A stretch of DNA of 50,456 nucleotides from positions 1 to 50,456 of IMG/VR virus record IMGVR_UViG_3300020437_000008; one strand, 5' to 3'. The notes beneath the pieces were generated by a model. The model had not been told where the DNA came from, did not search any database, and saw only the letters and a list, made by a program, of their open reading frames with translations. The stretch is from a virus. Made by a program: the position numbers and the translations under genes. This document shows positions 4,293 to 33,490 of this stretch, one piece after another (the stretch's first letter is position 1; each line of letters starts with the position of its first letter).

Positions 4293-4945
4293 GTTACTAT
4301 CGTTATGTTTCCAACCATAGCACTATGATTAGTGCATTGATATACTAAAGAGGTATCGCTTATATTATGTGGTACAATAAATTGTGTTAATCCTGTGGTA
4401 GAGTTAAAACTAGTTGTAACTCCCTCTGTAAAAGCAGAACCTCCATCTGATGCTCTTATTACTAAAGGATGACTACTTTCATTTGCAGTATTATCTATTA
4501 AGTAAGTATGTCCTTTGTAAAAGAAAAAAGCAGGATTATTCCCAGATGCCGCTCCTGGACCAGTAAATGTGTAAGCACTTGTCCCAACAACTCCTGCTGT
4601 ATATTTAGTTACAGGACCAGATGTTTCGTCATTTAGTCTAAGCCAAGCCCCACCATGAGCGAAATATAAACCACCAGTTGCATGAACATGAGCTACTGCC
4701 CCATGATACGTTGAAGCACTTGGTAGATCAGTTAAAGCACCATAATAAAAAACAATTTTATTAGCTCCAGAACTTACATCTAAAAGACCGTTTGCATCTA
4801 TAATATCAGTTAAAACACTAGAACTATTTCCTAATGCGTTATATATTTCAGTAAAATTATCATTTATTTTATCTGCACCAGCACGGAGTGTATCACCTGT
4901 ACCATCATTTGCGCTAGAACCAATTCCTACAGTTTGCTTTGCCAT
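4289..4945 (-). CDS. phage appendage/tail fibre-like protein
   Basis: This 218-residue protein starts MAKQTVGIGSSANDGTGDTL followed by DKINDNFTEIYNALG, a common N-terminal segment of phage fibre and baseplate-wedge-like proteins. The central part (HATGGLYFAHGGAWLRLND) resembles short structural repeats. The C-terminus (FIVPHNISDTSLVYQCTNHSAMVGNI) resembles a small cupredoxin-like beta domain seen in marine phage structural proteins. Copper binding is not implied. It is probably a virion component. Confidence 0.55.
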   Translation of the reverse strand: MAKQTVGIGSSANDGTGDTLRAGADKINDNFTEIYNALGNSSSVLTDIIDANGLLDVSSGANKIVFYYGALTDLPSASTYHGAVAHVHATGGLYFAHGGAWLRLNDETSGPVTKYTAGVVGTSAYTFTGPGAASGNNPAFFFYKGHTYLIDNTANESSHPLVIRASDGGSAFTEGVTTSFNSTTGLTQFIVPHNISDTSLVYQCTNHSAMVGNITIVT

Positions 4946-5335
4946 TTAACCCTCATCAAAAGTTTTTGTAGTTGTGTCAAGTTTAATACTTGTAGAATCA
5001 AAAGTAGTTGCTGAAGCTGTTGCTGATGTTATTGTAACAGTTCCAACGCTAATGTTAAGGGTGCTTAAACTTTCAATAGAACTAGGTATAATATCTTTTC
5101 CATTATCAGTAAATACTAGAAAAGGATTATTATCATCAGTGACATCCACTCTTGGTTGAAAAAGTGCTTGTGGATCATTAGGTTTACTTATTGGCTCAAG
5201 TTGTGGGTGTTTAGTTTCATAACACTCTGGGCATACTTTTAAGCCGTTCCACTCTTCGCGTAGATCTAAATAATTGTATCTAAAACCACATCTATCACAT
5301 ATAGCTTTGGAATATATACCAACCGCGTAAGCCAT
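4946..5335 (-). CDS. small protein with N-terminal zinc ribbon
   Basis: The likely ATG is at 5335 (MAYAVGIYSKAICDRCG), giving 129 residues; it overlaps the upstream stop by one base (TGATG). Four cysteines in CDRC (~13-16) and CPEC (~36-39) form a probable zinc ribbon. A Ser/Thr-rich tail follows (SVGTVTITSATASATTFDST). It lies between two connector-type genes, so a tail-completion or assembly role is possible. No enzymatic motif is visible. Confidence 0.55.
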   Translation of the reverse strand: MAYAVGIYSKAICDRCGFRYNYLDLREEWNGLKVCPECYETKHPQLEPISKPNDPQALFQPRVDVTDDNNPFLVFTDNGKDIIPSSIESLSTLNISVGTVTITSATASATTFDSTSIKLDTTTKTFDEG

Positions 5336-6015
5336 CAACTAAACCCATAAAAATCTCTGCGAGGTGTCAGACTCAAATTAGCCCTGTCTATATCTTCAAA
5401 AGCCGCTCTATTGAACTCTTCTTCATACATAGCTTTCAATAGAGTAACTCTATCTGGTGCTCTTTTAATAGATAAATAATAAGCTAATCCAGCCGCTAAA
5501 CACGGATAAAATCTAAAAGGCACTTCGACAGTATTAACAAAAGTATCCGCATCTTCTATTCTTGTAAGTCTATCAAAAACAAAAGTATAAGCTTTATCAG
5601 GTGTAGGCCAGATTTTTAAAACAGGTGTAATTTGTCTATCTACATAATATTGCGTGGGTCGAGCTTGTGTTCTTTTGCTTGGAATATTTAAGAATGTATC
5701 TCTGCCTATCCTAGTGATTTGCACATCTGATTGTGTGCTTGTACCAGCATTTTCCCTAATGACAGCACTTAATATGTCAATAGTATCGGCGTCTAATGTA
5801 TACTCTGCAGTGCCTTGTGTTATTGATATAGTGTTCTGGCTTATTGTCCATCTATTCAAACCTCTATTCGCCCAATCAGCAAACAACAAATTTAAAGAAC
5901 GTTTAGCGGTTTTGAGGTCATAACCTGTACGTACCTCTAAACCGCAACGCTCAAAAGCTTCTTCGATGTAATCAGCTACATCAAGCTCAAAATCTGTTGA
6001 ACCAGAAGTTGCCAT
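5335..6015 (-). CDS. probable second connector/adaptor protein
   Basis: This 226-residue protein starts MATSGSTDFELDVADYIEEAF and has CGLEVRTGYDLKTAKRSLNL, NLLFADWANRGLNRWTI, YTLDADTIDILSAVIREN, YYVDRQITPVLKIWPTPD and RFYPCLAAGLAYYLSIKRAP. The alternation of helical ends and a beta core with 'YxVDRQITPxLKIWPTP' matches a phage connector family found next to gp4-like adaptors. It shares TAATG with the downstream basic peptide. The structural role is inferred from family resemblance and position. Confidence 0.55.
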   Translation of the reverse strand: MATSGSTDFELDVADYIEEAFERCGLEVRTGYDLKTAKRSLNLLFADWANRGLNRWTISQNTISITQGTAEYTLDADTIDILSAVIRENAGTSTQSDVQITRIGRDTFLNIPSKRTQARPTQYYVDRQITPVLKIWPTPDKAYTFVFDRLTRIEDADTFVNTVEVPFRFYPCLAAGLAYYLSIKRAPDRVTLLKAMYEEEFNRAAFEDIDRANLSLTPRRDFYGFS

Positions 6016-6224
6016 TAGCTGTATGGACCTTTTACTAACCCACCTTTAGCCATGCCTTTTTTCTTCATGGTCATACCACCGCCCATCATTTTAGAGCGAC
6101 CTTTTTTCTTCATGGTCATACCTCCACCCATCATTTTAGAGCGACCTTTTTTCTTCATGTTACCACCATATTGCATTTTTTTGCGACCGCCATTTGCCTT
6201 CCCTTTTTTATTATGCATTGCCAT
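6015..6224 (-). CDS. small, highly basic peptide with tandem 15-residue repeats
   Basis: The start is set at 6224 (MAMHNKKGKANGG) because GGAG lies 8 nt upstream and longer versions would run into the preceding gene. The 69-residue product is rich in Lys, Met and Gly. It has two near-identical 15-residue units built on MKKKGRSKMMGGGMT plus a partial third. There are almost no acidic residues, so DNA or RNA binding inside the capsid is plausible. It is followed directly by a connector gene. Confidence 0.65.
   Translation of the reverse strand: MAMHNKKGKANGGRKKMQYGGNMKKKGRSKMMGGGMTMKKKGRSKMMGGGMTMKKKGMAKGGLVKGPYS
6055..6160 (-). repeat. 45-nt tandem repeat inside basic peptide gene
   Basis: Two adjacent 45-nt units (6055-6099 and 6100-6144) differ at only two positions. 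A partial third copy follows (6145-6160). The unit is a multiple of three, so the repeat expands the protein in frame. This suggests recent duplication by slippage or recombination. Confidence 0.85.
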
Positions 6225-6225
6225 G

Positions 6226-6903
6226 TCATTTCTCCTTTTTAGCATACAAATTATCAAAAGTAATACTTGGATCCATATAACTTTCATCACTTTCAGCATT
6301 ATGTATCCATTGACTAGGTAGAAAATCTGGAGCACCCTCCCCAGTTTCCCAAAGTGCAGGAGAAGTAGCCCTCACCCTGTTATTAGGTAATGCAACAATA
6401 TTACCTGTCCATTCCCCTGCATTAGTCAACTCTAAAACATGACTTTGCTTATGTTGTGCAGGATCATCCGCTATATCTGTTTCTGTGTAATCTACTGTAA
6501 ACATATATTTTGCCGTATAAAATTCACCATCTATTTTACAAATCCATGGACTAGAACTTACTCTATCAAGTTTTACAACAGAATGATAGTGAGAACTACA
6601 ATCCCAAGGTTGTGCATGGTGTGTTACCATACGTTCCGGCCAATCTTCTAACGGCACATCTGCTACTAAAGCTGTGATGGGTAATCTAGCCCACATCGCA
6701 CCGCCATGTATATTTTCTACACCTTCTTCATCTGCTTCATAACCAGTAAATACCACTTGGAAACTCAAACATCTATCGGGTATAGTATTAACTGCTATAG
6801 CCATTGCGTGTATGTACTCTCCATGATAATCACTGTGGTTATGAGTAAATTCTTTGCGTACCCAACATTTAAAATGTGGGATATTGCTTATCAAATAACT
6901 CAT
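6226..6903 (-). CDS. conserved marine phage protein of unknown function
   Basis: This 225-residue protein starts MSYLISNIPHFKCWVRKEF and has HNHSDYHGEYIHAMAIAVNT, IPDRCLSFQVVF, GGAMWARLPITALVADVP, QPWDCSSHYHSVV, YTAKYMFTVDYTETD and IVALPNNRVRATSPALWE. I recognise this pattern as a conserved protein in marine T7-like and cyanophage genomes, with no established activity. The many His/Trp/Cys residues in conserved places suggest a folded globular protein. It overlaps the upstream DUF5824-like gene by 4 nt and sits in the virion gene block. Confidence 0.6.
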   Translation of the reverse strand: MSYLISNIPHFKCWVRKEFTHNHSDYHGEYIHAMAIAVNTIPDRCLSFQVVFTGYEADEEGVENIHGGAMWARLPITALVADVPLEDWPERMVTHHAQPWDCSSHYHSVVKLDRVSSSPWICKIDGEFYTAKYMFTVDYTETDIADDPAQHKQSHVLELTNAGEWTGNIVALPNNRVRATSPALWETGEGAPDFLPSQWIHNAESDESYMDPSITFDNLYAKKEK

Positions 6904-26688: not shown

Positions 26689-27210
26689 TTAATCCAAACC
26701 TAAGTGACGTAACATATTCGCGACAGGTTGGAAGTCTTCAGAGCCGATAAAATTTTCTAATAAATAATCATTTCCAGCATCTCTTATTGTTTTCATTTGA
26801 GGTAATGATGAGTGACGATTACAATACATCACTAACTCTAACATATCGGCCATTTTCAATCGGTCTTTTTCTTTTTTAGTTAAAACAAAATTTAATTCTA
26901 AATTTTTCATTATTTCATCTTCAGCTTTTTCAAAAGCTTTTCTAAGATCTGGATATGCCCATTTCGCGGTAGCAGGGACATCCCCAAGTATTACTTCTGC
27001 TACGTCATGGTACAGGGCAGATAAGATTAATTGTTTGCTACTATCTGGCCAAAGTTGATCTAATAAAACACTTACAGCATATGAATGAGCTCCCACAGTT
27101 TGCCTTTCTGTTTGTAATGGAACGGTATGATATCTCACTAAGAACTGTGCGTCCCATGCGGTTATTAAAGTTTTAATGTTCGGTGTTGTCTTGCATTCTT
27201 GTGCTCCCAT
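26689..27210 (-). CDS. HD-domain 5'-deoxynucleotidase (YfbR-like)
   Basis: This 173-residue protein has VRYHTVPLQTERQTVGAHSY (~25-44) with the first His of the HD fold (H42). The HD pair is in LSALYHDVAEVILGDVPATA (H68, D69), and a distal Asp in RLKMADMLELVMYC (D122). This is the arrangement of YfbR-like dNMP 5'-nucleotidases. It would act on deoxynucleoside monophosphates, adjusting pools or removing unwanted dNMPs during replication. It overlaps polA by 38 nt and lies near the thymidylate synthase-like gene. Confidence 0.8.
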   Translation of the reverse strand: MGAQECKTTPNIKTLITAWDAQFLVRYHTVPLQTERQTVGAHSYAVSVLLDQLWPDSSKQLILSALYHDVAEVILGDVPATAKWAYPDLRKAFEKAEDEIMKNLELNFVLTKKEKDRLKMADMLELVMYCNRHSSLPQMKTIRDAGNDYLLENFIGSEDFQPVANMLRHLGLD

Positions 27211-29095
27211 CTTTTACTCCTCTACTCCAAGGTTTATCACTAAATGTTTTTTTGGCTTCACCCCAACTTGGACCGAACTCTGCATCTACAATACTAGGTA
27301 TCTGCATATCAACACAAGTCTCCATTATTTCCTGTATTTTCTTACCTAACTCAGGATCAGATACAGATATATCCAGTTCATCATGTACTTGTATTAAAGG
27401 TATAATCCCTTCTTTATACAAAGCAACCATCGCGGCTTTTGTTTGATCAGCCGCACTACCTTGTATCAATCTATTTAAAGCTTTGTAAGTGAAAGCACGT
27501 TTGATAGCTGGACCATGTTCTGCTAGTGCATCAGCATGACTCATAGGTTTATAAGTTCCATATGCATTTGGCTCCCACTTATCAAACCTACATCGCCTAC
27601 CTAAAAGAGTACGGATAGCTCCTTTTTTAGAAGCACGATTTACTACATACTCAGAGAGTTGTTGGACAAAAGGTACTTTTCCATGATACTCTGCAAATAG
27701 TTCTTTAGCATCTTCATAATCTAAACCTAACTGTTCTGCTAGTTTGTTCTTACCCATGCCATAGAATAATCCTAAGTTTATATCTTTAGCTTGTTTACGA
27801 GGTACACCCACTATATCAGCCGCCATCTGATGAAAGTCTGTATTAGCATCTACATTGTATTGATCAGCAAAAGCTTGTGCGCCATCTAACTTTAACAAAC
27901 TCGCATAATGAACAACGAGTCGTGGTTCTTGGCTACTATAATCAAATGCACCCCACAGCTCACCTTCTTCTGGTAAAAACAATCCACGAATCATTGGACC
28001 TATTTCAGCATTACGAGCAGGAACTTGCTGTAAGTTCGGGTTACTATAACTAAAACGACCTGTGACTGTGCCACCTTCATCACTACGGAGGCTATGTGCT
28101 TCAGCATGTATGCGCCCATTATGATTGTGTTTTAGTATAGTATCTATAAAAGTCGTACGTGCTTTATTAAGTTCACGAGCTCTTACCACTGCTTTTGGAA
28201 GAGCATGTTCATGGTTAGCCAGAAAGTTTTTAGTAAAACTAGGAGCTTTAGTTTTTTCTGTTTTTGGGTATCGTAACCCCTGTTCATCAAATGCTTTAGC
28301 TATACTTGATGCCGCCCATATATCTATATCACTACCACCAACAGCGGACAATACTTCTTGCTCTTGTTTTTCTAATTGTTCTTTTAGTTCTTCAGCTTTA
28401 GCTATATCTACACGCACTCCTTTCTTACGCATTTCAAAAACTACTTTAAGAACATTTATTTCTAAATCAAATATGTCAGCTATGTCTTCTTTAACGATTA
28501 AGCCTTTGAAATTATTCCATAATCTAAGTGTTAGTGCCGCATCTTGCTCAGCATATTGACCGACAAAATGTGCAGGGAGCTTCCACATTTCTGACTTAGC
28601 ATTTACCCCAAATGATTCTGCGGCTTCATATAACTCTTTTTCACTCTTACGTTCATTTAAATAATCTTTACCAAGTGCGTTCAATGCATAACTAAATCTG
28701 TTTTCATCAAGCAACGCACCTACAATCATAGTATCAACAACACGACCTTTTACTTCTATATTTTCTGCCCACAACCATCCGAGGTCGTACATTGCATTAT
28801 GCATTATATAATCTCGTTCTACTGAACAAACAGAAGCGAGCCAACGAAGTGTTTGCTTTGCATCTAAATTACTGCCGTTTTCATGTCGTATAGGGAAATA
28901 CCATGAACTACCCTCTACTGCTACAGCTATACCAATCACGTGACCATCTTTGCGACACCAACCACTTCCTAGAGATTTAAGGTTAGGGTCTCTTGTTTCA
29001 AGGTCTATGGCTACTTCACGTGCTTCCGATATATCTGGGTAGCCATCTGGCATTACCCACTCAGTCGGTGGTGTGAACAAGGGGAACTGCATCAT
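27173..29095 (-). CDS. polA: family-A DNA polymerase with 3'-5' exonuclease
   Basis: This 640-residue replicative polymerase has the exonuclease motifs VAIDLETRD (D31, E33), IMHNAMYDLGW (D104) and VGQYAEQDAALT (Y181, D185). Polymerase motif A is GAFDYSSQEPRL (D385), motif B is PRKQAKDINLGLFYGMG (R433, K437, L441, Y445) and motif C is IQVHDELDIS (H571, D572). L441 aligns with Phe762 of E. coli Pol I, so this is a Leu-type phage polymerase. There is no 5' nuclease domain. A small zinc protein and nucleotide genes precede it. Confidence 0.95.
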   Translation of the reverse strand: MMQFPLFTPPTEWVMPDGYPDISEAREVAIDLETRDPNLKSLGSGWCRKDGHVIGIAVAVEGSSWYFPIRHENGSNLDAKQTLRWLASVCSVERDYIMHNAMYDLGWLWAENIEVKGRVVDTMIVGALLDENRFSYALNALGKDYLNERKSEKELYEAAESFGVNAKSEMWKLPAHFVGQYAEQDAALTLRLWNNFKGLIVKEDIADIFDLEINVLKVVFEMRKKGVRVDIAKAEELKEQLEKQEQEVLSAVGGSDIDIWAASSIAKAFDEQGLRYPKTEKTKAPSFTKNFLANHEHALPKAVVRARELNKARTTFIDTILKHNHNGRIHAEAHSLRSDEGGTVTGRFSYSNPNLQQVPARNAEIGPMIRGLFLPEEGELWGAFDYSSQEPRLVVHYASLLKLDGAQAFADQYNVDANTDFHQMAADIVGVPRKQAKDINLGLFYGMGKNKLAEQLGLDYEDAKELFAEYHGKVPFVQQLSEYVVNRASKKGAIRTLLGRRCRFDKWEPNAYGTYKPMSHADALAEHGPAIKRAFTYKALNRLIQGSAADQTKAAMVALYKEGIIPLIQVHDELDISVSDPELGKKIQEIMETCVDMQIPSIVDAEFGPSWGEAKKTFSDKPWSRGVKDGSTRMQDNTEH

Positions 29096-29231
29096 CTGCC
29101 TTTACTTTCATTGGTTGATTACAGTAGCGACACATAGGCCACTTATTCTTTAGTTGCCTAAACGTCAATACTTTCTTATCTCTTAAACATTCGCATTGTG
29201 CTACAACAGTTTTATCAAGTTTACTTTTCAT
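29061..29231 (-). CDS. small zinc-finger-like protein upstream of polA
   Basis: A 56-residue frame runs from ATG 29231 to TGA 29061. It encodes MKSKLDKTVVAQCECLRDKK, then VLTFRQLKNKWPMCRYCNQP and a tail MKVKADDAVPLVHTTD. Two cysteine pairs (CEC and CRYC, ~13-15 and ~34-37) look like a zinc knuckle. It overlaps the upstream stop by 11 nt and the polA start by 35 nt. It may be a polymerase or replication accessory; this is inferred from position. Confidence 0.6.
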   Translation of the reverse strand: MKSKLDKTVVAQCECLRDKKVLTFRQLKNKWPMCRYCNQPMKVKADDAVPLVHTTD

Positions 29232-29526
29232 TACGCATACGTATCTCAGCTTCTACTAAAAACAAATACCTACGTAAATCCCTAATATCATCAAGGATAC
29301 CCTCGTCACGCATGTCTAGTTCAGCCGCTTTAAAAACATCATAGTTTTGTTGTTCTACTTGTTTTTCAAGGCGATCCCATTTACGTGCTAACATCATAAA
29401 TGCGCCAACACCGCCACGTTGCTTCCAACTATCACCATAACTTTTTTCAGCTTCATCTAAACCGAACACATCCTCGTATGATAATTGTTTTACCTTTTCT
29501 ATAATATCACTATACTTTTTATCCAT
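29221..29526 (-). CDS. small helical protein, possibly NMAD1 (DUF1599)-like
   Basis: This 101-residue protein contains EAEKSYGDSWKQRGGVGAFM (~25-44), MLARKWDRLEKQVEQQ and GILDDIRDLRRYLFLVEAEI. The 'YGDSW..RG..GA..ML.RK.DR.......D...D....DL..Y..L...' pattern resembles nucleotide-modification-associated domain 1. It overlaps the thymidylate synthase-like gene by 8 nt, the kind of partner NMAD1 has. The family call needs a profile search. Confidence 0.5.
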   Translation of the reverse strand: MDKKYSDIIEKVKQLSYEDVFGLDEAEKSYGDSWKQRGGVGAFMMLARKWDRLEKQVEQQNYDVFKAAELDMRDEGILDDIRDLRRYLFLVEAEIRMRNEK

Positions 29527-30523
29527 TGTTAACTCTTCTTTCTAACCACTCATGTACAGCTATGTGCCAATCATCAGGAACTATTTCTTTACATAAATCT
29601 AATGCTAAAAATATTTCTTTTTGTTTCCAAGCTTCCCAAACTCTACACATAGGTTGAGCTAACTCTGGAAATATTTTATTGTTATATGGGTGTTTTTTCA
29701 TGGGGTCTTCCATAAACAACTCTAGCTCTTCCATAAAGGAAGTTGCTCTAGTTACGATTCGTGAAGGATAAATACCACGTACTCCATAAGAGTCATAGTC
29801 AGGTTGCATATCTTTTAGAGTTTTAAGGGTATCTAAATAGGCATGTAGATTATTACTAAACTGAGTATAGATACCTACTTTAGCATTGACTTTAGCGGCT
29901 ACATACTCTTGTAAGATTGACATATGCACAGCATTAGCACCCATCGCTCCCCATATCATATCATTACTACGATTGCATACTGTCATATCTAATATTCTAT
30001 CACGGATACTAAAATATATATGAGTGTTACAAGGATGATCTTTACAATCATTATCCAACCGCAAATCTTCCTCAGCATCCCACATTGTTAAAACAGTTCG
30101 TCTATCATTTTCGTATGTGCGTAGCCTATGAATTACTTTTACTAACTGATCAAAATGAAAGTATTTGCGCCATCTATAACCATACGCACCTTGAAGTTGT
30201 TTACCGTTATCGCTATACTCTGACATACGTTTGTTAAACTTAGCAATCCACTCAACATCATTACGTCCTGCCAACATCCATAAGCTTTCCATAAAATGGA
30301 AGATGGGGTTAGCATCACGTTCAGGGTAGAATAATACTCGCTCCATAGGTTGATTATATACAATGGCTACAGGCTCTCTTAACTCAATAGCCTTGCCGTT
30401 CCTTGTTTCAACCTTTGTACCACTGTTCTCTAACTTTTGCTTTGCAAGCCAGAGAGCATCACTGACATTTCTAGCTGTGATAGTATGAGCACCTCTCACA
30501 ATAGTGCTACTAAATGTTGCCAT
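29519..30523 (-). CDS. thymidylate synthase-fold enzyme (TS or dUMP hydroxymethylase)
   Basis: This 334-residue protein has the TS core: HFMESLWMLAGRNDVEWI (E79, W82), QGAYGYRWRKYF, catalytic Cys in KDHPCNTHIYFS (C165), phosphate-site VCNRSNDMIW (R185, S186, D188), GAMGANAVHM (N197) and SNNLHAYLDTL (H227, Y229). N197 may correspond to E. coli N177, which favours dUMP over dCMP. The divergent 'RSNDxIWGAxGANAVH' form is found in phage TS-like enzymes, some making 5-hydroxymethyl-dUMP. Placed beside radical SAM and modification genes, hydroxymethylation is a real alternative to methylation. Confidence 0.75.
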   Translation of the reverse strand: MATFSSTIVRGAHTITARNVSDALWLAKQKLENSGTKVETRNGKAIELREPVAIVYNQPMERVLFYPERDANPIFHFMESLWMLAGRNDVEWIAKFNKRMSEYSDNGKQLQGAYGYRWRKYFHFDQLVKVIHRLRTYENDRRTVLTMWDAEEDLRLDNDCKDHPCNTHIYFSIRDRILDMTVCNRSNDMIWGAMGANAVHMSILQEYVAAKVNAKVGIYTQFSNNLHAYLDTLKTLKDMQPDYDSYGVRGIYPSRIVTRATSFMEELELFMEDPMKKHPYNNKIFPELAQPMCRVWEAWKQKEIFLALDLCKEIVPDDWHIAVHEWLERRVNNG

Positions 30524-30541
30524 TTTTTACCGCCTTTCTAT

Positions 30542-30566
30542 GGGGTTTTAAAGCCGCTCGAGCGGC
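30542..30566 (-). terminator. GC palindrome, possible terminator before TS-like gene
   Basis: A perfect 14-bp palindrome GCCGCTCGAGCGGC (30553-30566) lies in the 101-nt gap between the radical SAM and TS-like genes. On the minus strand it is followed by TTTAAAACCCC. It could be a weak intrinsic terminator or a processing site or operator. The rest of the gap shows no gene. Confidence 0.45.
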
Positions 30567-30624
30567 CGAGTTTATTATTACTTGTACAACTACTAAAAGC
30601 AAGCTTCTAGTGGCTATACGGCTT

Positions 30625-31626
30625 TTAAATAAAGTCAAAATGCTTTTTGACTTTGGGTGTATATGTGCCATTGCTAAGAGCTTTATTTATTTCCTCTTTT
30701 GTATGTTCATCTGGCTCGGGTAAACTTTGTCTGCCCATGCGGTCTGGTAACAAACCGTTACGAAGTGTTACGTTGTCACAACCATTACATGGACCGAAGT
30801 CACGTTGTCCATGATATAATTTTTGACGTGCGGCATGGAAAGCATCACCTTGCCAGATGTCTTGTAAATTCGTGCTATGAAGATTGCCACACTTGTACCA
30901 TCCAGGCCAATCATTACAACAAAGAGCTACGTTACCATCCCATCTAATACTTAACTCTCTAAAAGGTTTTGCACATCTTTTACCCCACTGATCGTAGTTA
31001 AGTGGAAAAGCTGATCCAGCGTGGTTACTAACTTGAGCATGTGTGCCATTTGTAGCTAGTGTAAGATCCATGCCAACTACGATATCATGCTCATCATATT
31101 TTCTTCTACGATGTGGGTTAGCGCGACGATCTGTTGGATATTCAAAAACGGGATGAGGACCTGTGTACCGTTCTTTAATTTTATCAACTATTTTTATACG
31201 CTCATAATTGTCAAGAAATAAAACATTTATCCCTGCATCCATAAGTTTATTGACTGTTTCCTCTGTGTCCTTCAACAAACCTCCTCCATTACTCGTCATC
31301 ATAAGAGAGGTTTTTGGTAACTTTTTTCTAAACAAACTTATCATCTCAATAAAGAAAGGATGCATAGTTGGCTCACCATGCATAGCGAACTCAATACGAG
31401 GGTTCCAATGTGCTTCCATGATTTGGTCACAAATCGCTTCAGCTGTTTGTATTGTCAAATTTTTATATGGTGCTGACTTTTTACCATGTTTATCATTTGG
31501 ACCATCAGCTTCGTTTTCACGTATAGACTGGATGCCACAAAAAGAACATGCTAAATTACAACCCTCTACAAGTTCTACTTGTATAGCGTTAGGGGGGTCT
31601 TGGTAATTATTAGATACAGTCTCCAT
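30625..31626 (-). CDS. radical SAM enzyme with SPASM-like C-terminal cluster domain
   Basis: The start is placed at 31626 (METVSNNYQDPPNAIQVELV), behind AAGGCGGCAAGTG; 333 residues. The radical SAM motif CNLACSFCG (CxxxCxxC, ~23-30) binds a [4Fe-4S]-AdoMet cluster. The region IEFAMHGEPTMHPFF is the GxP-type strand. The C-terminal cysteines in RCAKPFRELSIRWDGNVALC, CNDWPGWYKCGNLH and FGPCNGCDN form a SPASM-like second cluster site. In phages such enzymes accompany thymidine hypermodification. The substrate is not evident from sequence. Confidence 0.85.
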   Translation of the reverse strand: METVSNNYQDPPNAIQVELVEGCNLACSFCGIQSIRENEADGPNDKHGKKSAPYKNLTIQTAEAICDQIMEAHWNPRIEFAMHGEPTMHPFFIEMISLFRKKLPKTSLMMTSNGGGLLKDTEETVNKLMDAGINVLFLDNYERIKIVDKIKERYTGPHPVFEYPTDRRANPHRRRKYDEHDIVVGMDLTLATNGTHAQVSNHAGSAFPLNYDQWGKRCAKPFRELSIRWDGNVALCCNDWPGWYKCGNLHSTNLQDIWQGDAFHAARQKLYHGQRDFGPCNGCDNVTLRNGLLPDRMGRQSLPEPDEHTKEEINKALSNGTYTPKVKKHFDFI

Positions 31627-32395
31627 CACTTGCCGCCTTTCGCCATTGTACACGTACATCCCATCGTACTTTCATGTTATCCCAACCTGTTTTAGTTTCT
31701 TTTTTAACAGCCTTCACATGTTTAGGAAACATAGCTTCAAGTTTTTTACTTGCACGTTCTTGTAGTTCAGCATTACGATACGAACTGCATCCTCCTACAG
31801 CACCTGATGCCCCACGTTGATCCCACGTCCAATCAGTAATCATAACATTAGGATAGCCTAGTTTAAATAAACTAAGTGTCATATAATAATCTTCCATGAG
31901 ATCTACTGTGTCATAACGTAGATGTTCCTCTTTTAATACTTTTGGTTGGATACCATGAACAGCATTTTGCCTCATACACTCCTTCCAACGAGCAGGAAAA
32001 TGTTTATCATTCATTTGTCTTGGGCTTACACCAACATGCACATATGAATTTAAATATTCACTCATAGTATCAAATAGCTCATGCATTTCCTCTGGTTTGG
32101 TTTTACGTAGATTAGGTGCTACGTCAGATATGCGACGACCAAATATAAGATCGTCATCCAAAATAATAATTTTATCATGTCCCTTCTCCAACGCATGTTC
32201 TAGTATAAACTGTCGCGCATTATTTATCCCTGTTATAGAACCTCTGTTTAATGTCTTCCTACCCAAACTTTCATGTGTGGATACTTCATTATCGGGGCAA
32301 ACTAAAACAGCCGCTGATCTAACTTTTGAGCCTATACTTTCCCATGTAGTTTGTTTGTTAGTTCTTCCCCTAGTGGGTATATAAATAGGTATCAT
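31610..32395 (-). CDS. GT-A-type glycosyltransferase-like protein
   Basis: This 261-residue protein starts MIPIYIPTRGRTNKQTTWES, the first strand of a GT-A nucleotide-sugar fold. It has VLVCPDNEVSTHESLG, NNARQFILEHALEKGHDKII and the DxD-like ILDDDLIF (D80-D82). The later parts (LMEDYYMTLSLFKLGYPNVM, AVGGCSSYRNAELQERASKK) fit acceptor-site helices. It overlaps the next gene by one codon-scale step and belongs to the presumed base-modification cluster. It may glycosylate modified bases, or a host or virion surface. Confidence 0.7.
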   Translation of the reverse strand: MIPIYIPTRGRTNKQTTWESIGSKVRSAAVLVCPDNEVSTHESLGRKTLNRGSITGINNARQFILEHALEKGHDKIIILDDDLIFGRRISDVAPNLRKTKPEEMHELFDTMSEYLNSYVHVGVSPRQMNDKHFPARWKECMRQNAVHGIQPKVLKEEHLRYDTVDLMEDYYMTLSLFKLGYPNVMITDWTWDQRGASGAVGGCSSYRNAELQERASKKLEAMFPKHVKAVKKETKTGWDNMKVRWDVRVQWRKAASDGDCI

Positions 32396-33288
32396 TACAT
32401 TACTCTCCCCTCTGGTACATCTGTGTTTGTGGGAGTAAACCTACTTCGTGGTCTGCCTTGTTTAAGAAATACTCTTTGGTATTTATCCCACTCACATAAG
32501 CTATGCTCTATACACCGCATATCTACTTGCTCTAACGGAACCCATGATTCTACATGCTGTGGAGCTAACTTCAATAAATGGTGCATTTCTAAATTAGCTT
32601 GATCTTGTGGTAGAACTTTTTTAAGGTTTCTGCCATGTATTCTGTTTAATCCTCGTTTTGCTCCTGGACCTGCGTTTGCCCAACTAAAACGGTCTTCTGC
32701 CTTGTCCAAGACAGGTGTGTAGTTGAGGTCGGAAACGACTTCGTAAGACATAAAACCTCCTCCTCCCCACCCTCGATACCTAGCCATCTCCTCGTGGGTT
32801 TTTTGGAGCGAATTGGTTTGGCAAGCAACTTCCGCCACCTTGTCCTTATTCTCCCAGATCGGCTTAAGAAAATTATCAACTACTACCTCGGACTTTTTTG
32901 CTTTGACACCTTGATTAGTAATTATATATGCTCCTGTAAAAGTTCGTAAACCTTTTGCTAAACGACGCTCTAATATTTCTTTAGTGCGCTCAGCATCCCA
33001 ACCTTCGTTTTCATATACCCAACCATGATCTTCAGCAAACTCACTTGTGCCAGTCATACGGAACAAACAACAGTTAAATATAATTTCACCATGAGGGGCA
33101 TTATTATGTACATCAGTCCATTTTTTACGAAGCCAAATTGTAACCCTATCATTTTCACGGAAGGGGTTAGTAAATTTATACTCTTGTAAAATAGGGTCAT
33201 TTGTCCATGGTGGTGGTAGCCCTTCCACTCTTTGCAAATATATCTTATGCCGTTCATTTATCCAGCTATAAAAACTTTCTACTAACAT
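32395..33288 (-). CDS. aGPT-PPlase/HMUDK_hel-like base-modification protein
   Basis: This 297-residue, mainly helical protein begins MLVESFYSWINERHKIYLQR and has PWTNDPILQEYKFTNPFR (~26-43), NDRVTIWLRKKWTD, HGEIIFNCCLFRMTGT, RTFTGAYIITNQG and RYRGWGGGGFMSYEVVSDL. The 'R..G.P.PWT.DPIL..YKFTN..R..DRVT.W' pattern recalls the alpha-glutamyl/putrescinyl thymine pyrophosphorylase family and the related 5-hmdU kinase helical domain. Those proteins replace a phosphorylated 5-hydroxymethyl group with an amine in hypermodified phage DNA. The match is from memory and should be tested by profile search. Confidence 0.6.
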   Translation of the reverse strand: MLVESFYSWINERHKIYLQRVEGLPPPWTNDPILQEYKFTNPFRENDRVTIWLRKKWTDVHNNAPHGEIIFNCCLFRMTGTSEFAEDHGWVYENEGWDAERTKEILERRLAKGLRTFTGAYIITNQGVKAKKSEVVVDNFLKPIWENKDKVAEVACQTNSLQKTHEEMARYRGWGGGGFMSYEVVSDLNYTPVLDKAEDRFSWANAGPGAKRGLNRIHGRNLKKVLPQDQANLEMHHLLKLAPQHVESWVPLEQVDMRCIEHSLCEWDKYQRVFLKQGRPRSRFTPTNTDVPEGRVM

Positions 33289-33289
33289 T

Positions 33290-33490
33290 TCAGTGGTGTC
33301 CTGTAATAGCCATTATACGAGCTGGGATTACATCATACTCATTACACGTATTACAGCATCTCCCTTCTGCTACAGGCTCTGCATTATGCCCATCATACCA
33401 ATATGGATTACCAGATTTATCTACATGTGGCTCTATTTTACCACCACATATAACGCAATCTTTAACTTGGTTTTCTGTTTTATTTTCCAT
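33290..33490 (-). CDS. small zinc-ribbon protein
   Basis: This 66-residue protein contains KDCVICGGKIEPHVDKSGNP (~10-29), YWYDGHNAEPVAEGRCCNTC and NEYDVIPARIMAITGHH. Cys pairs CVIC and CCNTC form a zinc ribbon; this 'CxICGGKIEP...YW.DGHNAEPV..GRCC..CN...V.PAR' protein is common in marine phages. It overlaps the upstream gene by 11 nt. Its partner is unknown. Confidence 0.7.
   Translation of the reverse strand: MENKTENQVKDCVICGGKIEPHVDKSGNPYWYDGHNAEPVAEGRCCNTCNEYDVIPARIMAITGHH

Follow-up and report, generated by a model that had tools for sequence, protein, structure and literature searches.

A close described counterpart of the system considered here is that of Pseudomonas phage M6 and the yuaviruses, whose DNA (in M6) contains bases derived from 5-hydroxymethyl-2'-deoxyuridine (5-hmdU) (PMC6449724). 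In M6, gp54 is a P-loop 5-hmdU DNA kinase (PF18748, 8e-18), the product of the neighboring gene, gp55, is an HMUDK_hel protein (8e-56), and gp51 is the amino acid:DNA transferase (ADDT; PF18724, 1e-46). Sugars are attached to DNA bases in several other ways. The TAGT enzymes of T2/T6-like phages (beta-glucosyl-HMC-alpha-glucosyltransferases; family PF20691, GT-A type) add a second glucose to glucosyl-5-hydroxymethylcytosine (PMC13216743). Phage SP-15 carries a glucose-bearing thymine replacement, in which 5-(4,5-dihydroxypentyl)uracil rather than 5-hmdU is glycosylated and the side chain is already complete when DNA is synthesized (PMC5977210). In kinetoplastids, JBP dioxygenases and a glucosyltransferase act after replication to form base J, an O-glycosylated 5-hydroxymethyluracil. 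Glucosylated 5-hmdU was unreported in phage genomes as of 2019 (PMC6449724). Here we describe a gene island in the virus record IMGVR_UViG_3300020437_000008 of IMG/VR (50,456 bases; hereafter the window, whose numbering is used). This island probably produces O-glycosyl-5-hydroxymethyluracil in phage DNA, with a TAGT glycosyltransferase replacing the kinase and the sugar perhaps then being tailored.

The island consists of five adjacent open reading frames (ORFs), which the initial annotation had proposed as a thymine hypermodification cluster: the genes for an HMUDK_hel protein, a TAGT, a radical SAM enzyme, a thymidylate synthase (TS)-fold enzyme, and a 101-residue protein (Table 1). All five are present, on the minus strand, with successive spacings of -1, -50, +101, and -8 nucleotides, and are followed by a PolA-type polymerase gene and then by an HD phosphohydrolase gene. 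Because this gene order is repeated in dozens of other viral contigs, the arrangement is not due to chance. The Pfam matches of the TS, radical SAM, TAGT, and HMUDK_hel proteins each exceed the curated cut-off, which places these four, and not the 101-residue protein, in modification-type families. PHROGs concurs for TS (1e-105), the TAGT-type glucosyltransferase (PHROG 842, 4e-47), and the HMUDK_hel gene (an unnamed family, 6.5e-56). Like M6, the window combines, in a single island linked to replication, homologs of gp58 (45% identity), gp55 (33%), the HD phosphohydrolase gp59, and PolA. Unlike M6, it has a different class of radical SAM enzyme, a glycosyltransferase instead of the kinase, and no homologs of the pyridoxal phosphate enzyme gp52 or of gp56 (Nmad5). 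The proposed thymine hypermodification through 5-hmdU has good support, and the presence of a 5-hmdU pathway is very probable.

The PF18723 profile matches the HMUDK_hel protein with 172.5 bits against a cut-off of 25, and the match covers positions 4-276 of the 281 in the profile. The protein is homologous to M6 gp55 (2e-49) and not to gp51. Of the two identities first considered for it, that of an amino-acid transferase (aGPT-PPlase) is therefore rejected; the protein belongs to HMUDK_hel, the family of helical proteins that accompany 5-hmdU DNA kinases. Neither the window nor a near-identical phage, L002 (record of 57,464 bases), has a match to either P-loop 5-hmdU DNA kinase profile (PF18748, PF18747) or to ADDT (PF18724). 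In the positive controls, M6 and RaNi, PF18748 was found in both and ADDT scored 2e-48 and 5e-29, respectively; PF18747 gave no strong positive in any record searched. The initial impression that the window lacks an obvious kinase thus holds, and because the longer near-identical record also lacks the kinase profiles, the missing flank, which had been suggested as a place to look for a kinase, probably holds none. As a homolog of gp55 is present and the kinase profiles are unmatched, the window has the partner of the kinase without the kinase. The shared set of TS, HMUDK_hel, HD, and PolA would also suit an M6-type amino-acid hypermodification whose kinase and transferase were overlooked or supplied by the host. 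Such a system is highly improbable, however, given the silent searches in both records, the detection of ADDT and of the first kinase family in M6 and RaNi, and the lack of ADDT within 5 kb at all 62 of the glycosyltransferase loci described next.

Relatives were gathered by scanning IMG/VR, whose records may be fragments, with HMUDK_hel queries and by adding GTDB genomes. A six-frame profile search of 99 non-redundant HMUDK_hel loci then recorded which genes share the strand of HMUDK_hel and lie no more than 5 kb from it. HMUDK_hel is accompanied by a glycosyltransferase only at 62 loci, by a kinase only at 31, by both at none, and by neither at six; as the loci were kept for their resemblance to M6 gp55 or to the window, the ratio of 62 to 31 is not a prevalence. 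The exclusivity of kinase and glycosyltransferase thus has no exception among 93 loci, and this strict alternation is accompanied by that of other genes. ADDT is found at 25 of the 31 kinase loci, and the M6-type radical SAM enzyme at 18 of the 31 and nowhere else; the SPASM radical SAM enzyme is found at 14 of the 62 glycosyltransferase loci and at none of the other 37. These data agree with the earlier suggestion that a glycosyltransferase in the absence of a kinase may mean a different end product. A tree of 99 rows requires at least eight changes of the kinase/glycosyltransferase state. One of the loci with neither partner belongs to Glutamicibacter phage Montesquieu, in which P-loop candidates and a gene annotated as aGPT-PPlase clade 2 are located farther off.

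In the lineage of the window, the order HMUDK_hel - slot - TS - 101-residue protein - PolA - HD is kept in dozens of contigs, and it is the content of the slot that varies: a TAGT with or without the SPASM radical SAM enzyme, a GT4-like GT-B enzyme, a 320-residue family, or a 332-354-residue family. The profiles of the slot families were built iteratively, and two of the four glycosyltransferase groups are assigned from indirect or weak Pfam evidence. The 320-residue family is tied by profile to GT-B, and the 332-354-residue family is assigned from weak Pfam glycosyltransferase matches (0.005-0.025). A direct homology search of the latter against PDB sequences returned nothing, and profile comparison by hhalign did not support its relationship to the 320-residue family. 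Exchange is frequent: an HMUDK_hel tree of 69 rows requires no fewer than 18 changes of slot enzyme, against a possible minimum of 4 and a mean of 31 after shuffling. The window, with its TAGT, clusters with the GT-B-bearing loci L003 and L004 (support 88). The close sister pair L048 and L052 differ in their slot glycosyltransferase (320-residue family and GT-B, respectively), which is a recent cassette exchange. Some glycosyltransferase cassettes contain FkbM methyltransferases, which fit a sugar-tailoring theme. The longest cassette (L020:8873-14474) has, after HMUDK_hel, an HNH homing endonuclease, a TAGT, a SPASM radical SAM enzyme, an FkbM methyltransferase, a GT-B enzyme, and TS, and looks like an assembly line for a methylated disaccharide. 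At L018, an ORF resembling sulfotransferases (weak PF13469) adjoins a slot-family enzyme beside TS (5721-6482 and 4762-5724), a possible hint at a sulfated sugar on DNA.

The position of the slot also bears on what the enzymes act upon. Glycosyltransferases for surface glycans are common in phages, and the radical SAM enzyme has weak similarity to viperin and to peptide maturases (PADLOC, NCBIfam), so that the two proteins could act on a host surface glycan, a protein, or a peptide and merely adjoin a plain 5-hmdU pathway. This is quite improbable, because the glycosyltransferase lies between HMUDK_hel and TS, other glycosyltransferase families substitute for it at the same site, and it is never found together with the kinase. 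Moreover, glycosyltransferase, HMUDK_hel, and TS come together again in an unrelated backbone, that of Brevibacterium phage LuckyBarnes, where TS, two TAGTs, and an HMUDK_hel homolog are clustered. The similarity to viperin is weak and confined to the core domain, and an anti-phage defense role of the radical SAM enzyme was rejected.

The modified base is indicated by the TS-fold enzyme, which is 45% identical to M6 gp58 (4e-89). Its catalytic Cys165, already recognized in the initial annotation, is confirmed; Asn197, the equivalent of E. coli Asn177, is kept, and the C-terminus of thymidylate synthase is missing. Substitution of Asn177 by Asp switches the specificity to cytosine, whereas Asn selects uracil (PMC8670742). 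Both the active-site Cys and the Asn177 equivalent occur in 150 of 150 TS sequences, from kinase and glycosyltransferase loci alike. Because these residues are the same as in the kinase loci, and because M6 DNA contains 5-hmdU-derived bases, production of 5-hmdU is expected at the glycosyltransferase loci too. Modification of cytosine in the T-even style, with the TS-fold enzyme forming 5-hydroxymethyl-dCMP and the TAGT glycosylating the resulting base, would be in keeping with the substrate of T6 TAGT (PMC13216743) and with the profile comparison to solved structures, in which CMP 5-hydroxymethylase is nearest (9e-34), ahead of all thymidylate synthases. It is nevertheless improbable in view of the invariant Asn, the likeness of the active site to that of gp58 from a 5-hmdU phage, and the presence of HMUDK_hel, which belongs to the 5-hmdU pathway. 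In contrast to the T-even systems, the window has a single TAGT, a hydroxymethylase of the dUMP type, and HMUDK_hel. A hydroxylation route through TET/JBP enzymes was also considered: PF12851 had no match in 18 records, but the controls were equally silent. Hydroxymethylation here would take place at the nucleotide level, which differs from base J, and the predicted product belongs to the same class.

The TAGT had been described as a GT-A glycosyltransferase-like protein, and its membership of PF20691 (60.4 bits; cut-off, 27.5) confirms this. A DDD motif at residues 80-82 and D169 are invariant in 66 of 66 rows. The TAGT of the window would move a sugar onto the 5-hmdU hydroxyl in DNA, and direct glycosylation of 5-hmdU is likely.

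The AlphaFold model of the HMUDK_hel protein (predicted local distance difference test score, pLDDT, 94.9) was compared with the BFVD database by Foldseek. The matches include HMUDK_hel proteins (1e-13), a 637-residue 5-hmdU DNA kinase of phage SP10 (1e-10), ADDT (2e-3), and endonuclease III (0.13). The SP10 match is consistent with a fusion of kinase and HMUDK_hel. A fold search of PDB gave nothing significant; weak matches of the DNA glycosylase type (MagIII, EndoIII, AGOG) are no more than suggestive. The likeness of the model to ADDT, together with its weak likeness to endonuclease III, would fit a DNA-binding, base-presenting role, and HMUDK_hel is proposed as a candidate reader or presenter of 5-hmdU in DNA. 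Thirty-five residues, including charged ones, are conserved across the kinase and glycosyltransferase modes, as expected if the protein does the same job beside either partner, and this suggests a portable 5-hmdU recognition module. The same conservation, the structural kinship with ADDT, and sub-threshold ADDT profile matches of 13-18 bits in four records (one of which, in the record of L057, was located and lies on the HMUDK_hel gene) could also mean that HMUDK_hel is itself a catalytic transferase, a remote ADDT homolog. The glycosyltransferase would then act on a separate or earlier product, and the end product would be something other than a simple O-glycosyl-5-hmdU. This is unlikely: a separate, strong-scoring ADDT stands beside HMUDK_hel at 25 of the 31 kinase loci, so that HMUDK_hel is not needed for that job, and the window is without a kinase to make the activated pyrophosphoryl substrate.

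The radical SAM ORF has two possible starts, at 31659 (344 residues) and at 31626, as first annotated. The assignment to the radical SAM/SPASM enzymes was borne out, with PF04055 and PF13186 both above cut-off; its class is unlike that of the M6 enzyme and is seen only beside glycosyltransferases. A CX3CX2C motif at residues 34-41 and Cys 229, 247, 248, 291, and 294 are invariant in 32 of 32 rows. BtrN, which oxidizes a hydroxyl of a cyclitol, is the sole solved relative detected (1e-13), and the match is to the auxiliary-cluster region alone. We tentatively suggest, at slightly less than even confidence, that the twitch/SPASM enzyme tailors the attached sugar. By analogy, the change would most likely be a BtrN-like oxidation or epimerization of a hydroxyl, which is the weakest step of the proposal.

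Several points weigh against the synthesis of O-glycosyl-5-hydroxymethyluracil by this island. The raw association between kinase and glycosyltransferase (Fisher p 5e-20) ignores the kinship of the loci and so overstates the evidence. Of five independent contrasts on well-supported branches, none changes in the same direction, about 4.3 change in the opposite direction, and the rest show no difference; the kinship-corrected sign test gives p 0.125, there being too few contrasts for significance. At L069 (62-kb record G016), TS follows HMUDK_hel directly, with no kinase, TAGT, or other known slot partner, and this phage possibly has plain 5-hmdU or another transferase. The experimentally known T6 TAGT puts its sugar on glucosyl-5-hydroxymethylcytosine and not on 5-hmdU (PMC13216743). 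A fused HMUDK_hel-glycosyltransferase protein was sought and none was found, and it is conceivable that HMUDK_hel acts alone. Finally, the evidence is computational throughout.

Table 1. Genes of the island and of its downstream flank in the window.
Feature	Coordinates	Strand	Evidence
HMUDK_hel protein, 297 residues	32395..33288	-	Pfam PF18723, 1.6e-50
TAGT glycosyltransferase, GT-A type, 261 residues	31610..32395	-	Pfam PF20691, 3e-16
Radical SAM enzyme with one SPASM/twitch auxiliary-cluster domain, 344 residues	30625..31659	-	SPASM, 3e-12; Radical_SAM, 1.5e-9
Putative TS-fold dUMP hydroxymethylase, 334 residues	29519..30523	-	Pfam PF00303, 2e-22
Small all-helical conserved protein, 101 residues, overlaps the TS gene	29221..29526	-	Conservation, model
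PolA-type DNA polymerase, directly downstream of the island	27173..29095	-	38% identity to M6 polymerase, 1e-130
HD-domain phosphohydrolase, 5'-deoxynucleotidase-like	26689..27210	-	YfbR-like, 8e-10

In the predicted pathway, the TS-fold enzyme, with its M6-type residues and nearest solved structures, would convert dUMP to 5-hmdUMP. The HD protein, perhaps the 101-residue protein, and host kinases would lead to 5-hmdUTP, which PolA would incorporate into DNA. HMUDK_hel, the kinase partner in M6-type phages, would recognize and present 5-hmdU in DNA, and TAGT, in place of the kinase, would transfer a sugar to the hydroxymethyl oxygen; that kinase and glycosyltransferase alternate speaks for this step. 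Least certainly, the twitch/SPASM enzyme may alter the sugar. The glycosylated product would protect phage DNA from host nucleases.

The 101-residue protein had been read as an NMAD1-like partner, a candidate that was dropped: it has no Pfam or NCBIfam match, DUF1599/PF07659 is unmatched even at E 10, and none of eight homologs matches this profile. Its model is a four-helix fold (pLDDT 93) whose best fold matches are non-significant and include several MazG-type pyrophosphohydrolases; it is possibly a MazG-like nucleotide pyrophosphohydrolase. Its homologs adjoin TS or HMUDK_hel in most relatives. The HD protein is 36% identical to M6 gp59 (5e-20), has the same position in most relatives, and is a candidate nucleotide-pool enzyme of the same pathway. 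Its gene overlaps that of PolA, and M6 has the same pair. The top NCBIfam match of PolA is the aminoadenine-incorporating polymerase DpoZ_1, at 339 bits and below the cut-off of 500. A 2-aminoadenine (Z) genome, to which the DpoZ-like polymerase and the HD protein had pointed, was rejected, as no match to PurZ (PF00709) was found and the same pair is present in M6. The HD enzyme may be a general pool-cleaning enzyme of modified-base phages; a dTTPase activity is known from phiW-14-infected cells (PMC5977210).

Two further ORFs lie close to the island. The product of 25876-26358 matches PHROG 624 ("DNA binding protein", 3e-50) and, below threshold, a pyrimidine dimer DNA glycosylase. Its homolog is close to the island in most relatives, and immediately before HMUDK_hel in many of the loci L089-L112, and the protein could belong to the modification system. 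Between HMUDK_hel and a 220-residue gene is a Cys-rich, zinc-ribbon-like ORF of 66 residues without a family match (33290-33490).

The large terminase (TerL) of the window is 58-63% identical to those of HTVC027P, 023Pt_psg01, DSL-LC04, and HTVC023P, which points to a backbone of the HTVC023P type (pelagiphages and kin, relatives of SAR11 viruses). No such island was found in the annotated parts examined of these four genomes. A cluster of TS and aG/PT-PPlase1, with a 5'-deoxynucleotidase and a glucosyltransferase, has been published for HTVC023P-type pelagiphages and, lying near PolA, is very likely an island of the same kind; thymidine hypermodification was proposed and a beta-glucosyl-HMC-alpha-glucosyltransferase noted (PMC9599517). 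The cluster is thus not new as such, having been described in part in 2022. As far as the accessible portions of that report extend, they do not identify aG/PT-PPlase1 as the kinase partner or describe the missing kinase, the alternation, the radical SAM enzyme, or the slot exchange (PMC9599517). The alternation of kinase and glycosyltransferase and the swapping of cassettes are new here. In the literature searched, nothing was found on a kinase partner that lacks its kinase, on alternation or swapping, on the link to the radical SAM enzyme, or on a predicted glycosyl-5-hmdU; two papers on the kinase pathway, of 2018 and 2022, and a computational survey of 2013 may overlap with these points. 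The abstract of the 2022 kinase-pathway paper reportedly mentions that thymidine hypermodification genes occur in combinatorial permutations in viral metagenomes.

Solitary TAGTs without a known substrate occur in 288 of 753 surveyed phage genomes, and their function was an open question in 2026 (PMC13216743). The strict alternation around a conserved HMUDK_hel gives them a concrete, testable substrate. More generally, and with the balance even, HMUDK_hel may be a general 5-hmdU adaptor into which phages plug either a kinase or one of several sequence-unrelated glycosyltransferases (TAGT, GT4-like GT-B, and others). Marine relatives of the HTVC023P type, in which the glycosyltransferase branch is frequent, would then make base-J-like thymine sugars, which cassette enzymes would oxidize, methylate, or extend, and the resulting set of DNA glycans would be swapped rapidly. 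The DNA of the phage described here may bear a sugar-decorated thymine so far unreported in any phage. If the proposal is right, sugar-coated thymine in some ocean phages would matter for restriction, for the chemistry of sequencing, and for tools of DNA modification.

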